64,000 nucleotides of DNA from Alicyclobacillus sp. (GTDB taxonomy: Bacteria > Bacillota > Bacilli > Alicyclobacillales > Alicyclobacillaceae), in the NCBI RefSeq assembly GCF_023511815.1, contig NZ_JAIMAV010000003.1, positions 1-64,000 of the forward strand. The letters run 5' to 3'. Under the pieces are notes generated by a model that did not search any database, was not told where the DNA came from, and was given only the letters and a program-made list of their open reading frames with translations. Both the position numbers and the translations under genes were made by a program. This document shows, one piece after another, positions 37,888-46,754 of the stretch; positions within the stretch are counted from its first letter, which is position 1; each line of letters starts with the position of its first letter.

Positions 37888-37930
37888 CGGGGCGTTTGGC
37901 CCCGCCGCCCGGATCCACACCGGACGGCGG
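37888..37930 (-). terminator. Terminator region of the aro-trp supraoperon
   Basis: Two GC-rich hairpins in series after aroA: CCGCCGTCCGG/CCGGGCGGCGG and CGGGGC/GCCCCG, 15 bases after the stop. No T run follows, so efficiency is uncertain. Confidence 0.45.
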
Positions 37931-37944
37931 AAAGCCCCGTGACG

Positions 37945-39288
37945 TCACAACGCGGGCGCAGGTTGCTCTCGCAGCTCCGCCCCGAGCTTGGCGAGGGTCT
38001 GTGCGAACGTCGGGTATGAGATCTGAACGCAGTCCCAATCCCGGATGCGGACCCCCATCGTCGACGCGAGACCCGCGACGGCGAGGCTCATGGCGATGCG
38101 GTGGTCGCCCCGGCTGTCCGCCGTGCCGCCGCGAAGGGCGCCTCGACCATGCACGGTGAACCCGTCCTCCGCCTCGTCCACCTCGCAACCGATGTCCCGC
38201 AGCCCCTGCGCGATGGCCGCAATCCGGTCCGTCTCCTTCACCCGCAACTCCGCCGCGCCATGGACGCGCGTCTTCCCCTCGGCAAAGGCGGCCAGCACCG
38301 CCAGCACCGGCAGTTCGTCGATGAGGGACGGCACCTCGGCCGGTTCAATCTCGACGCCCACCAGCGGCCCGTGCGTCACCGTGATGTCGCCGACCAGCTC
38401 TCCCGACACCCTGCGCAGACGGTCCAGCTGCACCCGTGCGCCCATGCGGTTCAGGACGCGCAGCATCCCGGTGCGGGTGGCGTTCAGGCCCACGTCTGTC
38501 ACCGTGACCTCGGATCCCGGCACCAGGGCCGCCGCCGCGATGAGAAATGCCGCCGACGACAGGTCCCCGGGGACGTGGACGGTCGCGCCGCGGAGCACCT
38601 GGCCGGATTCCACCGCGATGCGCGTGCCGGTCCCAAACGCTTCCCGGTGCACCTGGACGCCGAAGGCCGACAGGAGATTTTCCGTATGATCCCGCGTCGC
38701 CTCCGGCTCCGTGACGACGGTCACCCCGTCCTGGGCCAGAAGGCCCGCGACCAGGATGGCGGATTTCACCTGAGCGCTCGCGACGGGCAGTGTGTATTCG
38801 ATCCCGGTGAGCGGCCCGCCCGTCACCGCCAGCGGCGCGAATCGGCCCGACCGCGCCTGGATGCGGGCGCCCATGCGGGACAGCGGATCGATCACGCGCC
38901 CCATCGGCCGCCGGCGCAAAGACCCGTCTCCCGTCAGCACCGCGAACGGGGACCGCGCGGCGATGGCGCCGAGAAAGACGCGCATCGTCGTGCCGGAGTT
39001 GCCGCAGTCCAAGACGTCCTCCGGCTCCCTGAGCCGGCCGCCGGTGCCGGTGATGACCAGATGCCCGTCCTCTTCTTCGGTCACCGTCGCGCCGAGCAGG
39101 CGCGCGACCCGGATGGACGAGCGGCAGTCGCCGGCGTCCAGCCAGTCGTACACCTGCGTCGTTCCCTCGGCGAGAAGCCCGAACAGGATGGCCCGGTGTG
39201 TGATGGATTTGTCCCCTGGCACGCGGACGGCGCCCCGCAACGCGCTCCCCGGGGGTACGAACATTTCATGGACAGATCCGGTGGTCAT
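37945..39288 (-). CDS. aroA: 3-phosphoshikimate 1-carboxyvinyltransferase (EPSP synthase)
   Basis: A 447-residue EPSP synthase of the shikimate pathway. VPGDKSITHRAILFG, the DCGNSGTTMRVFLG loop, GDGSLRRRPMGRVIDPL and the late RGDHRIAMSLAVAGL motif are intact. ATG 39288 overlaps the tyrA stop (ATGA). The LDCGNSGTT and SLRRRPM forms are of the class I/II border; I make no claim on inhibitor sensitivity. It closes the aromatic supraoperon (called aroE in older B. subtilis naming). Confidence 0.95.
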   Translation of the reverse strand: MTTGSVHEMFVPPGSALRGAVRVPGDKSITHRAILFGLLAEGTTQVYDWLDAGDCRSSIRVARLLGATVTEEEDGHLVITGTGGRLREPEDVLDCGNSGTTMRVFLGAIAARSPFAVLTGDGSLRRRPMGRVIDPLSRMGARIQARSGRFAPLAVTGGPLTGIEYTLPVASAQVKSAILVAGLLAQDGVTVVTEPEATRDHTENLLSAFGVQVHREAFGTGTRIAVESGQVLRGATVHVPGDLSSAAFLIAAAALVPGSEVTVTDVGLNATRTGMLRVLNRMGARVQLDRLRRVSGELVGDITVTHGPLVGVEIEPAEVPSLIDELPVLAVLAAFAEGKTRVHGAAELRVKETDRIAAIAQGLRDIGCEVDEAEDGFTVHGRGALRGGTADSRGDHRIAMSLAVAGLASTMGVRIRDWDCVQISYPTFAQTLAKLGAELREQPAPAL

Positions 39289-40190
39289 CGGTTCACGCTC
39301 TCCTCCCAAGCCAGACGGGCCGACCGCGCCTCGGACAACCGTCTGTGCAAGCCGTCTTCATCCGCCTGCTCCAAGATGTCGGCGAACGCCCCGGCCACCT
39401 GCGCCAGCGTGCGCAGGTACGCCGAGACGTGCCATCGATTGTGCATGAGCGTGGGGACCCAGAAATCCGGGGCCGATGCCGCGAGCCGGGTGACGTCGCG
39501 AAATCCGGGCCCGGCCAACTCCCCCCACGCGTCTGCCCGCGGCCCGGCCGTCTCCCGGTACGCGAGCATGGCGGACAACGACGCCAGATGGATGCCGTGG
39601 CTGACGGAGGCCATCGCCCGGTCGTGCTCCTCCGCGCCGGACAGGCGAACGCACCGGGCGCCCGTCCGCTCCAGCCACGGGATGACCGAGGAGGACGCCG
39701 GCCAGCCGTCGAGCACAATCCAGGTCCGGCCGTCGAACAGATCCGCCCTGGCGTGCGCGGGGCCGGACGCGGCCGTGCCCGCCATCGGGTGCGTCGGGGC
39801 GAACACCTCCCCGAGGCCCGCCCGGCGGGCCGCCTCGACAATCGGCCCCTTGACGCTGCAGACGTCCGTCACCCGTTGGGCCAGAGGCGCCACGGCGGAA
39901 AGCATCGCGCACGCGGCATCCACCGGCACGGCGAGCACGGCGAGGGTGTACCGCCCGGACGGGGGGAGGGCTTCCCCCGACGGGTGCGTCTCCGGGGATG
40001 GGAGATGGGCAAACACCTCGGTGAACGCCCCCGTCTCCCGCGCCTGGCGCCTGTGTTGCGGCGACGCCTCCACCCCGTGCACCACCAGGCCGGGGACAGC
40101 GCGCCGCAGGGCCAGCGCGAAGGACGTGCCGATGAGGCCGCAGCCGACCACAAGGATGGATTCCGGTGATGGATGCGCCACGCCGCTCAC
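39285..40190 (-). CDS. tyrA: Prephenate dehydrogenase
   Basis: A 301-residue TyrA that oxidises prephenate on the way to tyrosine. The NAD-binding [46 protein letters not shown] and [13 protein letters not shown] motifs are present. B. subtilis TyrA has a C-terminal ACT domain (about 370 residues); this protein stops before it, so feedback control by tyrosine through ACT is not expected. GTG 40190 overlaps the aroF stop. Confidence 0.93.
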
Positions 40191-41224
40191 CGGCCCGGAA
40201 CGTACACGGGGGCTTCGACGCCGTGCACCGCCTCCGCGACGCGCGTGACCTCCTGCACCATGTGATCGAAATCGTCGAGCGTCAGCGACTGTTCGCCGTC
40301 CGAGAGCGCCTCGTGCGGCCGCGGATGCACCTCGACGATGAGGCCGTGCGCGCCGGCCGCGATGCCCGCCCGCGCCATCGCCAGCACGTAGCGGGAATGG
40401 CCGACACCGTGGCTGGGATCGACAATCACCGGCAGGTGGGAGTAGTACTGGACGACCGGCACCGCATTGAGATCCAGGGTGTTGCGGGTGTACTTTTCAA
40501 AGGTCCGGATGCCGCGCTCGCACAGGATCACGTTCCGGTTGCCCTCCGACAGGATGTACTCGGCGGACATCAGCCACTCCTCAATGGTCGCCGACAGCCC
40601 GCGCTTGAGCAACACCGGCTTGTCGGTGCGGCCGACCGCCTTCAGGAGGGGGAAGTTCTGCATATTGCGCGCGCCGATCTGCAGGACGTCGACGTACTCG
40701 AGCATCAGGGGCAGGTTCTCGATGTCCATGACCTCGCTGACCACCGGCAGCCCGGTCTCCTCCCGCGCCTCCGCCAGCAGTTTCAGCCCTTCCTCGCCGA
40801 GGCCCTGGAAGGAGTACGGAGAGGACCGCGGTTTGAAGGCGCCGCCGCGCAGCATGTGTGCCCCGGAACGTTTGACCGCATGGGCGATCTCGAGGATTTG
40901 CTCACGCGATTCGACCGAGCACGGGCCCGCGATGATCACCGGGTCCGCCCCGCCGACGACCACGTCTCCGACCTGGACCAGGGTGTCCTGCGGGTGGAAT
41001 GCGCGGCTGGCGAGTTTGAACGGATTGCTCACCTTGACCACCTTCTCCACGCCGGCCATCGACTCAATCGGCATTCCGAGCACGCGCTCCTTCGGACCGA
41101 TGATGCCGATGATGGTCTTCTCGGCGCCCTGCGACAGATGGGTCTCCAGGCCCTTGCCCTGCAACAGTTGGACGACGGCTTGAATCTCCTCCTGGCGCGC
41201 CCCTTCCTTCATCACCACAATCAT
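40187..41224 (-). CDS. aroF: 3-deoxy-7-phosphoheptulonate (DAHP) synthase, type I-beta
   Basis: A 345-residue DAHP synthase, first step of the shikimate pathway. An N-terminal ferredoxin-like regulatory domain ([18 protein letters not shown], about residues 1-70) precedes the barrel with [35 protein letters not shown] and VDPSHGVGH. This architecture binds tyrosine or phenylalanine in Thermotoga-type enzymes. It sits where B. subtilis has hisC, linking pathway entry to trp-tyr genes. ATG 41224 follows GAGGAGAGGG. Confidence 0.94.
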
Positions 41225-41240
41225 TTCTCTCCCTCTCCTC

Positions 41241-42060
41241 TCAGTGTGCGATGTGTGTCGCCGCCGCACCGGCTCTGTGCAGGGCTGCAATCAGTGAACC
41301 GGCAAAGCCGGATACGGAAGCCAACAGGTCGCCTTCGTCTCTCTTTTGTTCAACCCAATCGCCGACGCGCCGGACGAGGGCGCTGCCCACAATCACCCCG
41401 TCGGCGAACCGGGCGATCCGCGCGGCCTGCTCCGGGCTGCTGACGCCAAAACCGACCGCGACGGGGACGTCCGTGAACTGGCGTGCCGTGCGCACCAACT
41501 CCTCCAGCCGCTCGGACATGCGGACGCGCTCACCGGTGACGCCGAGCGACGAGACGCAGTACACGAACCCGCGCGCCTGCCGGCAGATGTCCGCGATGCG
41601 CGCTTCGCCGGAGGTCGGTGCGACCAGCGGCACGAGGGCGATGCCGCACGCATCGGCCACGGCGCGGACCGGTTCGCTCTCCTCAAAGGGCAGGTCCGGG
41701 ATGATCACCCCGTCCGCCCCGGCCGCGCGGGCATCCGAGAAGAACCGCTCAATCCCGTACTGGATCACCGGATTGACATAGGTGAAAAGCACCAATCCCG
41801 CGTCTGTCTCCGGCCGCAGCGCCGCCGCCGCCTCAAACACCTGCGGCAGGCGGAATCCCGCCCGGAGGCTGCGCAGCGCGGACGCCTGAATGACGGGACC
41901 GTCCGCGAGTGGGTCAGAATATGGCGCACCGATTTCGACGATGTCGGCACCCGCCCGCAGCACCGCGCGAAACAGCCGGAGGGATTCGTCGAAGGAAGGG
42001 TCCCCGGCGTTGAGGAACGGAATGAACGCCGCCCGGTCCCCGTGTCGTCGAAATGCCCGT

Positions 42061-42074
<14 letters not shown>
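41241..42074 (-). CDS. trpA: Tryptophan synthase alpha chain
   Basis: A 277-residue TIM barrel releasing indole from indole-3-glycerol phosphate. [10 protein letters not shown], the catalytic Glu in [33 protein letters not shown] with the catalytic Asp, and GFGVSSPEQ are all visible. ATG 42074 lies inside the end of trpB (14-base overlap) after AGGAGGGG. Confidence 0.96.
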
Positions 42075-43313
<1,239 letters not shown>

Positions 43314-43317
<4 letters not shown>

Positions 43318-44042
43318 GGAATCGCCTCCTCGGACGCCTTCAGCCCGGCCGTGATAGCATCGGACCGAATGGCGCGATCGACTTCATCGAGAAATGCCAG
43401 AATTCGGCGGGGGTCCTTCCGTCCGTCCGTCTCCACCCCCGAGGAGACGTCGACGCCCTTCGGGATGAACCACCGAAACAGCTGCGACACGTTGGCGCTG
43501 GTCAGGCCGCCCGCGACCCAGATCGCGGGCAGTGCGGGGGCCAACGACCGGGCCGTCTCGACGGCCTGTGGCAGCACCCGCCAGTCGTAGGTGCGCCCGT
43601 GACCGCCCGTGACGCCCCCCGTCCCTTTCGGCGGCGCGGCATCGAGCAGGAGCGCGTCCGCCTGGCCGGCGAATGCCGCCAGTCGGCGGGCGAGCGCGTC
43701 CATGCGCTCGTCATCCCGGACGGCCAACGACCGCCACACCCGAAGGCCGCTGGCGCGAAGCGCCGCGCACAGGGCCGGGGTCTCCTCGCCGTGCAGCTGC
43801 GCCACCCGAATGCCGCTCTCCTCCGCCACGCGGAGGATCTCCTCCCGGGAGGCGTTGACGAATACGCCGACCGGCTCCGCGCGCCCGGCGAGATCGTCAA
43901 TCATCCGCCGCGCCAGTTTGGGTGCGACATACCGCCGGCTCTCGGCGACAAACACCCATCCGACGTGGGTGACCCGCGGATGGTCGGTGAACGACAGGTC
44001 GTCCCCGGGCTGCAACCCGCAGATCTTCACCTCGACCGTCAT
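43314..44042 (-). CDS. trpF: Phosphoribosylanthranilate isomerase
   Basis: A 242-residue TIM barrel. VEVKICGL carries the catalytic Cys, VGVFVN and VAQLHGEE follow, and [13 protein letters not shown] and [11 protein letters not shown] complete the active site. The LDAAPP form is slightly unusual (LLDS is common). ATG 44042 overlaps trpC by 4 bases. Confidence 0.95.
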
Positions 44043-44848
44043 GGTGCGCCCGCTCCGCTTGGCAGCGGCACGCGAAAGCTGGTCAACCGTTCGGCGACCT
44101 CGTCCTCGCCGCCCGCGCGCATCAGCGACTCCCCGACCAGAATGCCGCGGGCCCCGTACGCGGCCATCCGGGCCGCGTCCTCCGCGGTGTGGACGCCGCT
44201 CTCCCCGATGACCAACGTCCCCGCCGGGACCTGCGACAGGACGATGCGCGTGGTCTCCAACGAGACCTCGAACGTCCGCAGGTCGCGGTTGTTCACGCCC
44301 AGCACCGACGGCTCGGCCGCCAGCGCGGCATCCAGTTCGTGCACGTCGTGGACCTCAATCAGCGTGTCGAGCCCGAGCGACCGCCCGTAGGCCGCCAGTT
44401 CCCGCAGCCGTTCTTTCGAGAGCGCGGCGCAGATGAGCAGGATGGCGTCCGCTCCCGCGGCGCGGGCCTCATCCACCTGCACCTCGTCGAGGATGAAGTC
44501 CTTGCGCAAAACCGGCAGCCGGACCCGGTCGCGAACCGCCATCAGGTCGGCGATGGAGCCCTGGAAATACACCTCATCCGTCAGCACGGAGATGGCGGCC
44601 GCCCCCGCCCGTTCGTACACCGCGGCGGTGGCAGCGGGGTGGAACACCGGCGCGATCAACCCCTTCGACGGGCTCGCCCGCTTCACTTCCGCAATCACGG
44701 CGAGACCGGGGGCCTCGGCGATGGCCCGGGCGAATCCCCGGCAGGGCGGCATGGCCTGCGCGCGTTCCCGCAGCTCCGCCGCCCGCGGGCGCAACCGCCG
44801 CACCTCTTCTCGTTTGGTCTCCAGGATGCGCTCCAGAAATCCGCTCAC
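44039..44848 (-). CDS. trpC: Indole-3-glycerol phosphate synthase
   Basis: A 269-residue TIM barrel. VIAEVKRASPSKGLI contains the catalytic Glu and Lys; LPVLRKDFILDEVQV, GVNNRDLRTFEV and VIGESGVHTAEDA are the remaining active-site strands. GTG 44848 overlaps the trpD stop. Confidence 0.96.
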   Translation of the reverse strand: MSGFLERILETKREEVRRLRPRAAELRERAQAMPPCRGFARAIAEAPGLAVIAEVKRASPSKGLIAPVFHPAATAAVYERAGAAAISVLTDEVYFQGSIADLMAVRDRVRLPVLRKDFILDEVQVDEARAAGADAILLICAALSKERLRELAAYGRSLGLDTLIEVHDVHELDAALAAEPSVLGVNNRDLRTFEVSLETTRIVLSQVPAGTLVIGESGVHTAEDAARMAAYGARGILVGESLMRAGGEDEVAERLTSFRVPLPSGAGAP

Positions 44849-45885
44849 TGCGCCACCTCCTCGCGATGATACCGGTGCGTGGCCTCGACAAACCGCGACA
44901 GCGCAGCCGCAGCGTCGCCCGAGTCCAGCGCCGCCTGCGCAAGGCGCACCCCGTCGGCGATGGAGTCCGCCCGGCCGGCCACGTGCAGGACGGCGCCCGC
45001 GTTCAGGACCACGACGTCGCGAGCGGGTCCCGTCTCTCCCTCGAGCACACGGCGGATGATGGAGGCGTTGTGGGCCGCATCACCGCCGGCCAACGCCGCG
45101 AGCCCCGCGCGACGCAACCCGAAATCTTCTGGAACCACGGTGTACGTGCGCACCCGGCCGTCCCGGACCTCGGCGATGAGCGTCTCGCCCTGCAGGGAGA
45201 TCTCGTCGATCCCGCCGTCCCCATGCACCACCAGGGCGTGCGTGGTGCCGAGCCGGTTGAGCGCCTCCGCCACCTTGTCGACCAGATCCGCCCGATAGAC
45301 GCCGAGCACCTGCCGCCTGGCCCCGGCCGGATTGGTCAGGGGGCCGAGGATGTTGAAGATGGTCCGAAACCCGAGCTGTTTGCGCGGTTCGGCGGCGTGT
45401 TTCATCGCCGGGTGGTATGCCTGAGCGAACAGAAAGCACAGGTTCGTCTCCTCGAGGCACGCCAGCGCCTCCTCGGCCGACAGTTGGATGGCCGCCCCGA
45501 GCTCGTGGAGCACGTCCGCACTGCCGCTTCGGCTGGACACCGCGCGGTTCCCGTGCTTCGCGACCGGCACGCCGCACGCGGCGGCCACGATGGCCGCGGC
45601 GGTCGAGATGTTGAACGTCTGGCCGCCGTCGCCCCCCGTGCCGCAGGTGTCGACCACGTCCAGGCCGGTGTCGAGCCGCACACTGTGCGCGCGCATGGCG
45701 CGGGCAAAGCCGACAATCTCGGAGACCGCCTCTCCGCGCACCGCCATCGCCGCCAGCAGACCGGCGGTCTGAACGGCGGTGACGCGCCCCTCCATCAACT
45801 CGTGCATGAACCGTTCGGCCGCGTCCTCATCCAGCGCGCGTCCCTGGGATACCTGTTGCAGGACGTCTCTCACCAATGTGCTCAT
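44845..45885 (-). CDS. trpD: Anthranilate phosphoribosyltransferase
   Basis: A 346-residue enzyme joining anthranilate to PRPP. VDTCGTGGDGGQTFNISTAAA binds PRPP; KHGNRAVSSRSGSADVLHELG and FNILGPLTNPAG are family hallmarks. It is the first gene after the TRAP leader; trpE, which holds this place in B. subtilis, is missing. ATG 45885 follows GAGAGGAG. Confidence 0.96.
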   Translation of the reverse strand: MSTLVRDVLQQVSQGRALDEDAAERFMHELMEGRVTAVQTAGLLAAMAVRGEAVSEIVGFARAMRAHSVRLDTGLDVVDTCGTGGDGGQTFNISTAAAIVAAACGVPVAKHGNRAVSSRSGSADVLHELGAAIQLSAEEALACLEETNLCFLFAQAYHPAMKHAAEPRKQLGFRTIFNILGPLTNPAGARRQVLGVYRADLVDKVAEALNRLGTTHALVVHGDGGIDEISLQGETLIAEVRDGRVRTYTVVPEDFGLRRAGLAALAGGDAAHNASIIRRVLEGETGPARDVVVLNAGAVLHVAGRADSIADGVRLAQAALDSGDAAAALSRFVEATHRYHREEVAQ

Positions 45886-45960
45886 CTGGCTCTGCTCCTC
45901 TCCACTGAACTCGCGGGCGTGCGTGTGACCGGGCGGCGAATCGTACCGGCGTTTCTGGGT

Positions 45961-46001
45961 AATAAAAAATCCACACGGTAGGAGAGCTTCCTATCCTGCG
46001 G
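45961..46001 (-). terminator. trp attenuator terminator
   Basis: On the minus strand CCGCAGGATAGGA (46001-45989) pairs with TCCTACCGTGTGG (45983-45971) with two mismatches around a 5-base loop; ATTTTTTATT follows. It is 76 bases before trpD. GCTCTC in the loop and 3' arm is complementary to GAGAGC inside the TRAP site, a possible antiterminator. Confidence 0.8.
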
Positions 46002-46056
46002 ATGGTCAAAGCCGATGACGATACACGGACCCCGACAACGCGAGGTCACCGCTTGG

Positions 46057-46115
46057 CTCCACTCAGCTCCGCTCCGCTCAACTCACTCCGCTCTCAACTC
46101 AACCAAACTCTGCTC
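46057..46115 (-). promoter_or_regulatory. TRAP (MtrB) RNA-binding site in the trp leader
   Basis: The leader RNA carries eleven GAG triplets in 59 bases, most exactly 5 bases apart (plus-strand CTC starting at 46057, 46062, 46067, 46072, 46077, 46082, 46086, 46091, 46098, 46108, 46113); one grid position holds UGG. Eleven GAG/UAG triplets with 2-base spacers is the known binding site of the 11-subunit tryptophan-activated TRAP ring. TRAP bound here would favour the downstream terminator when tryptophan is abundant. Confidence 0.9.
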
Positions 46116-46137
46116 TTGTCATTGCGATATATGAGGA

Positions 46138-46166
46138 ATCATACGGGAAGCCCGGTCATTCGTCAA
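46138..46166 (-). promoter_or_regulatory. Sigma-A promoter of the trp operon
   Basis: On the minus strand TTGACG (46161-46166), 17 bases, TATGAT (46138-46143). Transcription would start near 46131, 16 bases before the first GAG triplet. The 467-base gap 45886-46352 is thus a regulatory leader with no gene. Confidence 0.8.
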
Positions 46167-46352
46167 TACACAATCGCCCGCATTGCGCCCCGACGAACCC
46201 CATTTCCAACCCCGTATCGCGGCACCGCCCCCATGGCGCGGTCACCGACAGCGGCACCTCTCCCATGGCGCGGTCACCGACAGCGGCGCCGCGCCAGGAC
46301 ATCCCGCTGGCGCGGCGCACCCGACGGCGGTCCCGCCGGACTCCGGGGGGCA

Positions 46353-46754
46353 TCAGGCTCCGCCCGAAGCGTTTTTCTGCGCGTGTTCCACCATGTCCGG
46401 GCGCAGCGCCACCGCTTCGCCCAGGTACATGTGGACCATCTCCTCCTGGCGGCGCTCCGTGTTCACATGAAGGAGAAGCCGGATGCAGCGCGGCATGGAC
46501 CCCGGCACCGCCAATTCGGTGGCGCACATCAGCGGAACCCATTGCCACCCGTCGATGCTGCGCACCGCCTTGGCCGGGAAGTCGGCGTTCAAATCGGGCG
46601 TCATCGTCAGCATCACGCTGGCGACGTCGTCGGGCGCCAGTTGATTCGCCTCAATCACGGCCAGCATCAGCTCCCGCGTGGCCCGAAAGATCTCCTCCGG
46701 CGTGTTTTCCGCCGCGGTCGTCGCCCCGCGCACCCCGCGCACCACTTTCGTCAT
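46353..46754 (-). CDS. aroH: Chorismate mutase, AroH type
   Basis: A 133-residue monofunctional chorismate mutase of the B. subtilis AroH fold, converting chorismate to prephenate. VRGVRGATTAAENTPEEI contains the active-site Arg; MLTMTPDLNADFPAKAVR and CIRLLLHVNT are typical. ATG 46754 overlaps aroB by 4 bases. It ends about 190 bases before the trp promoter. Confidence 0.95.
   Translation of the reverse strand: MTKVVRGVRGATTAAENTPEEIFRATRELMLAVIEANQLAPDDVASVMLTMTPDLNADFPAKAVRSIDGWQWVPLMCATELAVPGSMPRCIRLLLHVNTERRQEEMVHMYLGEAVALRPDMVEHAQKNASGGA

Follow-up and report, generated by a model that had tools for sequence, protein, structure and literature searches.

When a window of 64,000 nt from an Alicyclobacillus sp. 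genome (G000, 3.0 Mb; contig C90) was analyzed, an array of GAG triplets and an intrinsic terminator were observed on the minus strand directly in front of trpD. This leader very probably attenuates transcription of trpDCFBA and the downstream aro genes under the control of TRAP, and it has a further GAG array at the trpD Shine-Dalgarno (SD) sequence. One TRAP would act on both this operon and a separate trpG-trpE operon. Most of the detailed knowledge on TRAP, a textbook regulator, comes from B. subtilis. What is new is the arrangement, together with an apparent series from attenuator to SD site among related genomes, while the regulator itself is known.

The trpD leader and the genes behind it

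The leader lies between aroH (46754-46353; chorismate mutase, TIGR01796, 150 bits) and trpD (45885-44845; TIGR01245, 429 bits). A promoter pattern search found a sigma-70-type promoter, TTGACG-17-TATGAT, at 46166-46138. It is the sole sigma-70-like match within 37900-46400 (8.5 kb), and related trpD leaders have the same -35/-10 pattern. Downstream of it is the distal GAG array (46052-46115), the proposed TRAP binding site, which consists of 11 non-overlapping GAG triplets (starting at 46115, 46110, 46100, 46095, 46088, 46084, 46079, 46074, 46069, 46064 and 46059) and one AAG at 46054. The start-to-start spacings are 5, 10, 5, 7, 4, 5, 5, 5, 5, 5 and 5 nt. Most spacers are therefore 2 nt long; one slot is empty (the spacing of 10), one spacer has 1 nt and one has 4 nt. 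With these irregular slots included, the array has the approximately 11 (G/U)AG triplets with 2-3 nt spacers of a TRAP leader. The eleven GAG triplets described in an earlier, sequence-only reading of this DNA were thus recovered, but the 5-base grid on which it had placed them is followed mostly and not strictly.

A chain score rewarding (G/T)AG every 5 nt was calculated over the whole 64-kb window on both strands, with 40 dinucleotide shuffles as the control. The distal array scored 8.3, compared with 4.9 or less as the best of the 40 shuffled windows. When the 3.0-Mb genome was scanned with fixed patterns, five strict KAG triplets in a row were found in this leader only. Two further 4-triplet matches (one at the SD of an rsgA-like gene, the other upstream of an HlyD-like gene) were dismissed because reversed-pattern controls yielded at least as many.

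Between the array and trpD there is a terminator (45961-46003), which was recognized by folding and by covariation across 16 leaders. Its stem (46003-45969; -16.4 kcal/mol) is followed by UUUUUAUU, with the U run at 45968-45961, and it was overlooked by a pattern scanner because the stem has internal mismatches. The good promoter and the intrinsic terminator of the sequence-only reading are therefore both present. The Rfam search of the trpD leader gave no matching family, and the T-box model (RF00230) gave no match at the trpD and trpG leaders searched. As the leaders searched match no Rfam family, such sites likely stay unannotated.

Behind the leader, trpD is followed on the same strand by trpC (44039-44848), trpF (43314-44042), trpB (42061-43317) and trpA (41241-42101), all named from ORF reading. 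Next are aroF (40187-41224; DAHP synthase of the B. subtilis type, TIGR01361 and PRK08673), tyrA (39285-40190; prephenate dehydrogenase, below the curated cut-offs of individual models) and aroA (37945-39309; EPSP synthase, ORF reading). The start codons of trpA and aroA possibly lie further in. From trpD to aroA the gaps are -4, -4, -4, -41, +16, -4 and -25 nt. Since the genes overlap or nearly abut, trpDCFBA-aroF-tyrA-aroA can be a single transcript. The short gaps and the lone promoter also make it plausible that control by the leader reaches aroF, tyrA and aroA by read-through, as had been proposed from the sequence.

The locations of mtrB and trpE

The TRAP gene, mtrB, was found at G000:C90:66856-67053 (minus strand), on the contig of the window and 2.9 kb beyond the window end, between an HU gene and menaquinone genes (ORF reading). 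Its product scored 130 bits, above the NCBIfam equivalog cut-off of 117, and gave a gap-free alignment of 65 residues with solved TRAPs such as 1c9s. MtrB keeps the TRG..TRFHH.EKLDK and AQFTEHTSA.K.RGK segments, which we take to hold the tryptophan pocket and the RNA-binding residues. The sequence-only reading had left mtrB to a genome search; together with the array and the terminator, the gene supports the TRAP attenuator that it placed directly before trpD.

Among the 61 genomes searched, mtrB was detected in 55. Genomes G016 and G044 (97 % and 91 % complete) have clear TRAP-type arrays (L121 and L088, respectively) and mtrB was not found in them, probably as a result of assembly gaps and possibly through loss of TRAP. 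An anti-TRAP-like protein of approximately 70 aa (MTIALDDLEQ.CWEC...CPKCGGKGVVLTALGQTLLDFIRRHL), with a longer loop between the CxxC pairs, is encoded in both same-genus relatives (L151, G001:C1 near 3515600; L152, G002:C46 near 233200). None was found in G000 with a B. subtilis query sequence, and an Rfam search gave no T-box upstream of L151 and L152.

The sequence-only reading had also stated that trpE is missing. It is indeed absent between the leader and trpD, but the genome does contain it, apparently relocated and not lost. The N-terminal TrpE domain (PF04715) was not found in the G000 assembly, with all 14 of 14 controls detected, and the chorismate-binding domain (PF00425) gave two matches. 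One is a MenF-like protein (G000:C148:9364-10122) upstream of menD. The other is a trpE fragment encoding the last 175 aa (C39:3773-4240), located where the 4.2-kb contig C39 breaks off; its best fit is trpE_most, and at the DNA level the fragment shares 84 % identity with trpE from G001, a genome of the same genus. Thus trpE is interrupted by an assembly gap, with its N-terminus and trpG within the gap. True loss of trpE, considered from the PF04715 result, was rejected since PF00425 located the C-terminus at a contig end.

On C39, trpE is followed by a thiolase gene, and G001 (L090) has the order [GAG array]-[terminator]-trpG-trpE-thiolase. In both same-genus relatives and in many other genomes, trpG-trpE forms a distinct operon, preceded by a GAG array of its own and mostly by a terminator. 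The close relatives with operon, array and terminator include Alicyclobacillus macrosporangiidus, which is the nearest named genome (TrpD 85 % identical). It shares an identical leader with G002, and hence both are the same or nearly the same. Where trpE lies and whether it has a TRAP site, the question left by the sequence-only reading, is thus answered through the relatives. By this analogy the trpG-trpE leader of G000, in the assembly gap, would also carry a TRAP site, and one TRAP would set both pathway halves, the trpG-trpE operon and trpDCFBA-aro. A separate pabB was not found in G000 by the chorismate-binding domain search. As only the MenF-like protein and the trpE fragment were detected, TrpG-TrpE may also serve folate (PABA) synthesis.

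Leaders across the Alicyclobacillales

Most Alicyclobacillaceae, and the sister family as well, have an array and a terminator before trpD. Arrays were significant (p ≤ 0.01 against shuffles) in 35 of 37 trpD leaders and 12 of 14 trpG leaders, which are not independent sets because many leaders are related and three duplicate named loci. When 16 trpD terminators were aligned, the helix was paired in 90.9 % of cells, a value that fell to 42.8 % or less on sliding. Five pairs were altered on both sides. This conservation with compensatory changes indicates that the hairpin itself is under selection. The trpG leaders have another hairpin, typically CCACAGC-loop-GCTGTGG-TTTTTT. In many relatives (L065, L072, L080, L081 and L086) the trpG leader lies directly 3' of tRNA genes.

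Outside the order, arrays were also found at the trpE loci L060, L063 and L064, and in G055-G058 trpE is located on the same strand at most about 2 kb upstream of trpD. The layout of two operons and two attenuators looks like a trait of the order. Being common to the whole order, it is no peculiarity of this genome.

No terminator was detected in the trpD leaders of genera g4 and g5 and of genome G012. In genus g5 (L126-L133), GAG half-arrays lie on either side of a short hairpin and continue over the SD, and in G012 nine GAG repeats extend onto the start codon. These arrangements suggest that control in genus g5 and G012 has shifted to translation. A wider reading, for which we see about even chances, is that the Alicyclobacillales combine one TRAP and two attenuators with a series of trpD leaders. 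The series would run from attenuator plus SD array, through leaders with no detected terminator (g4), to purely translational control (g5 and G012), with the g5 hairpin looped out between the half-arrays.

Predicted switching at the trpD leader

TRAP binding, a response to tryptophan, antiterminator action and a translational block are what we infer from the leader sequence. With ample tryptophan, TRAP rings (MtrB) loaded with it would bind around the GAG array as the leader RNA emerges. The array would then be barred from the terminator 5' arm, the terminator would form and transcription would end before trpD. Under tryptophan shortage, transcription would continue into the operon. The sequence-only reading had proposed a GAGAGC:GCTCTC antiterminator, which was rejected: the letters are present, but leader folding predicts another pairing. 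In an RNA ending inside the terminator 5' arm, the 3' half of the distal array (46082-46057) pairs with 46020-45993, which overlaps the terminator 5' arm and covers UCCGC of the terminator stem. This predicted antiterminator is weakly supported in the window leader, where shuffled arrays paired equally well (p = 0.37). For 19 leaders pooled, which are not independent, the value was 8e-4 against shuffled arrays. The full-length leader RNA favours the terminator at 0.86 with the array free and at 0.93 with the array blocked, so that any switch would require a kinetic mechanism. Leaders L010 and L028 of the sister family form long two-part helices between the array and the terminator arm, and folding there supports the antiterminator idea better than the window leader does.

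The weak pairing in the window leader, and a terminator that dominates whether the array is blocked or free, could also be explained if TRAP on the array removes RNA polymerase directly, with the hairpin minor and no antiterminator switch. In B. subtilis, TRAP can terminate transcription in vivo without an intact attenuator (PMC3913778). We consider this explanation unlikely here, as the conserved terminator helix shows compensatory changes and the sister family pairs its arrays with the terminator arm in long helices. It is hardly credible that the repeats are chance purine-rich sequence between aroH and trpD and that the terminator is unrelated and ends an upstream aro transcript. The sequence is GC-rich and locally purine-rich, but the array score was never matched by shuffles, a promoter lies upstream of the array, mtrB is present in the genome, and arrays recur at both loci across two families despite differing spacers. 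A TRAP-controlled attenuator thus remains our preferred reading of the distal array and terminator.

A second GAG array in the window lies on the trpD SD and start codon (45881-45912, minus strand). It is the second-best chain of the window (score 4.9) and is proposed as a second TRAP site. It has 5 GAG and 2 CAG, fewer triplets than the 9-11 of known TRAP sites. In other leaders the repeats number 9 (L124) and 6 (L125), and the array is conserved across genera. When 532 SD-preceded ORF starts from the window and related loci were ranked, trpD and trpG starts were on top, with some top entries being spurious starts within distal arrays. In an alignment of 25 genomes, which leaves out the window itself as the core finder took a wrong anchor, triplets at or beside the SD core mostly hold 1.2-2.0 bits and the 2-nt spacers mostly 0.1-0.7. 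A TRAP translational block at trpD is likely from these patterns, and the short array would probably add it to control of messages that escape attenuation.

Even with a real distal array, the repeats at the trpD SD might be merely a strong purine-rich ribosome-binding site on which TRAP does not act. This is possible, and somewhat doubtful in our view. Two GAGs occur in any AGAGGAG ribosome site, the window site itself is short, and an SD array is nearly lacking in L114 and L115. Against this, triplets outside the SD core are conserved while the spacers vary, and among SD-preceded starts in these genomes the SD array is confined to trp genes. The higher repeat numbers of 6 and 9 are found in genomes without a detected terminator. 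We therefore continue to read the array as a probable second TRAP site.

In B. subtilis, the trp leader follows aroH in the aro/trp supraoperon and has its terminator 3' of the array (PMC3913778, PMC1173090), and the antiterminator is drawn from the array and the terminator 5' arm (PMC3913778). The trpD leader resembles that of B. subtilis trpEDCFBA in its position after aroH, its approximately 11 GAG/UAG triplets, its terminator 3' of the array and the plan of its predicted antiterminator. Its first gene is trpD, whereas that of the B. subtilis operon is trpE. TRAP sites also occur at trpG, trpP and ycbK, so a leading trpE is not general to them, and at these genes TRAP blocks translation by binding GAG sites (PMC11255114). 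The GAG repeats over the ribosome-binding site at trpD, in genus g5 and in G012 are similar. However, the B. subtilis sites lie in the translation initiation region alone, while the SD array here follows an upstream attenuator and the g5 array is interrupted by a hairpin. The trpG genes of the order, unlike B. subtilis trpG, have an array and a terminator upstream. In B. subtilis, a hairpin induced by TRAP conceals the SD of trpE (PMC11255114), whereas the trpD SD here has its own GAG repeats. Trp T-box leaders of other Firmicutes also attenuate in the trp leader, with the pathway sometimes in several operons; unlike in those, no T-box was found here, despite 12 T-box matches elsewhere in the genome (4 above the curated cut-off). 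No literature on Alicyclobacillus trp control was found, and since TRAP phylogeny papers were covered incompletely, precedence is possible.

In this organism, the first step of the pathway belongs to a different operon, and one regulator seems to keep the pathway together. Related genomes show apparent intermediates between transcriptional and translational control, and these natural leaders make a change of control level by an RNA-binding regulator testable.
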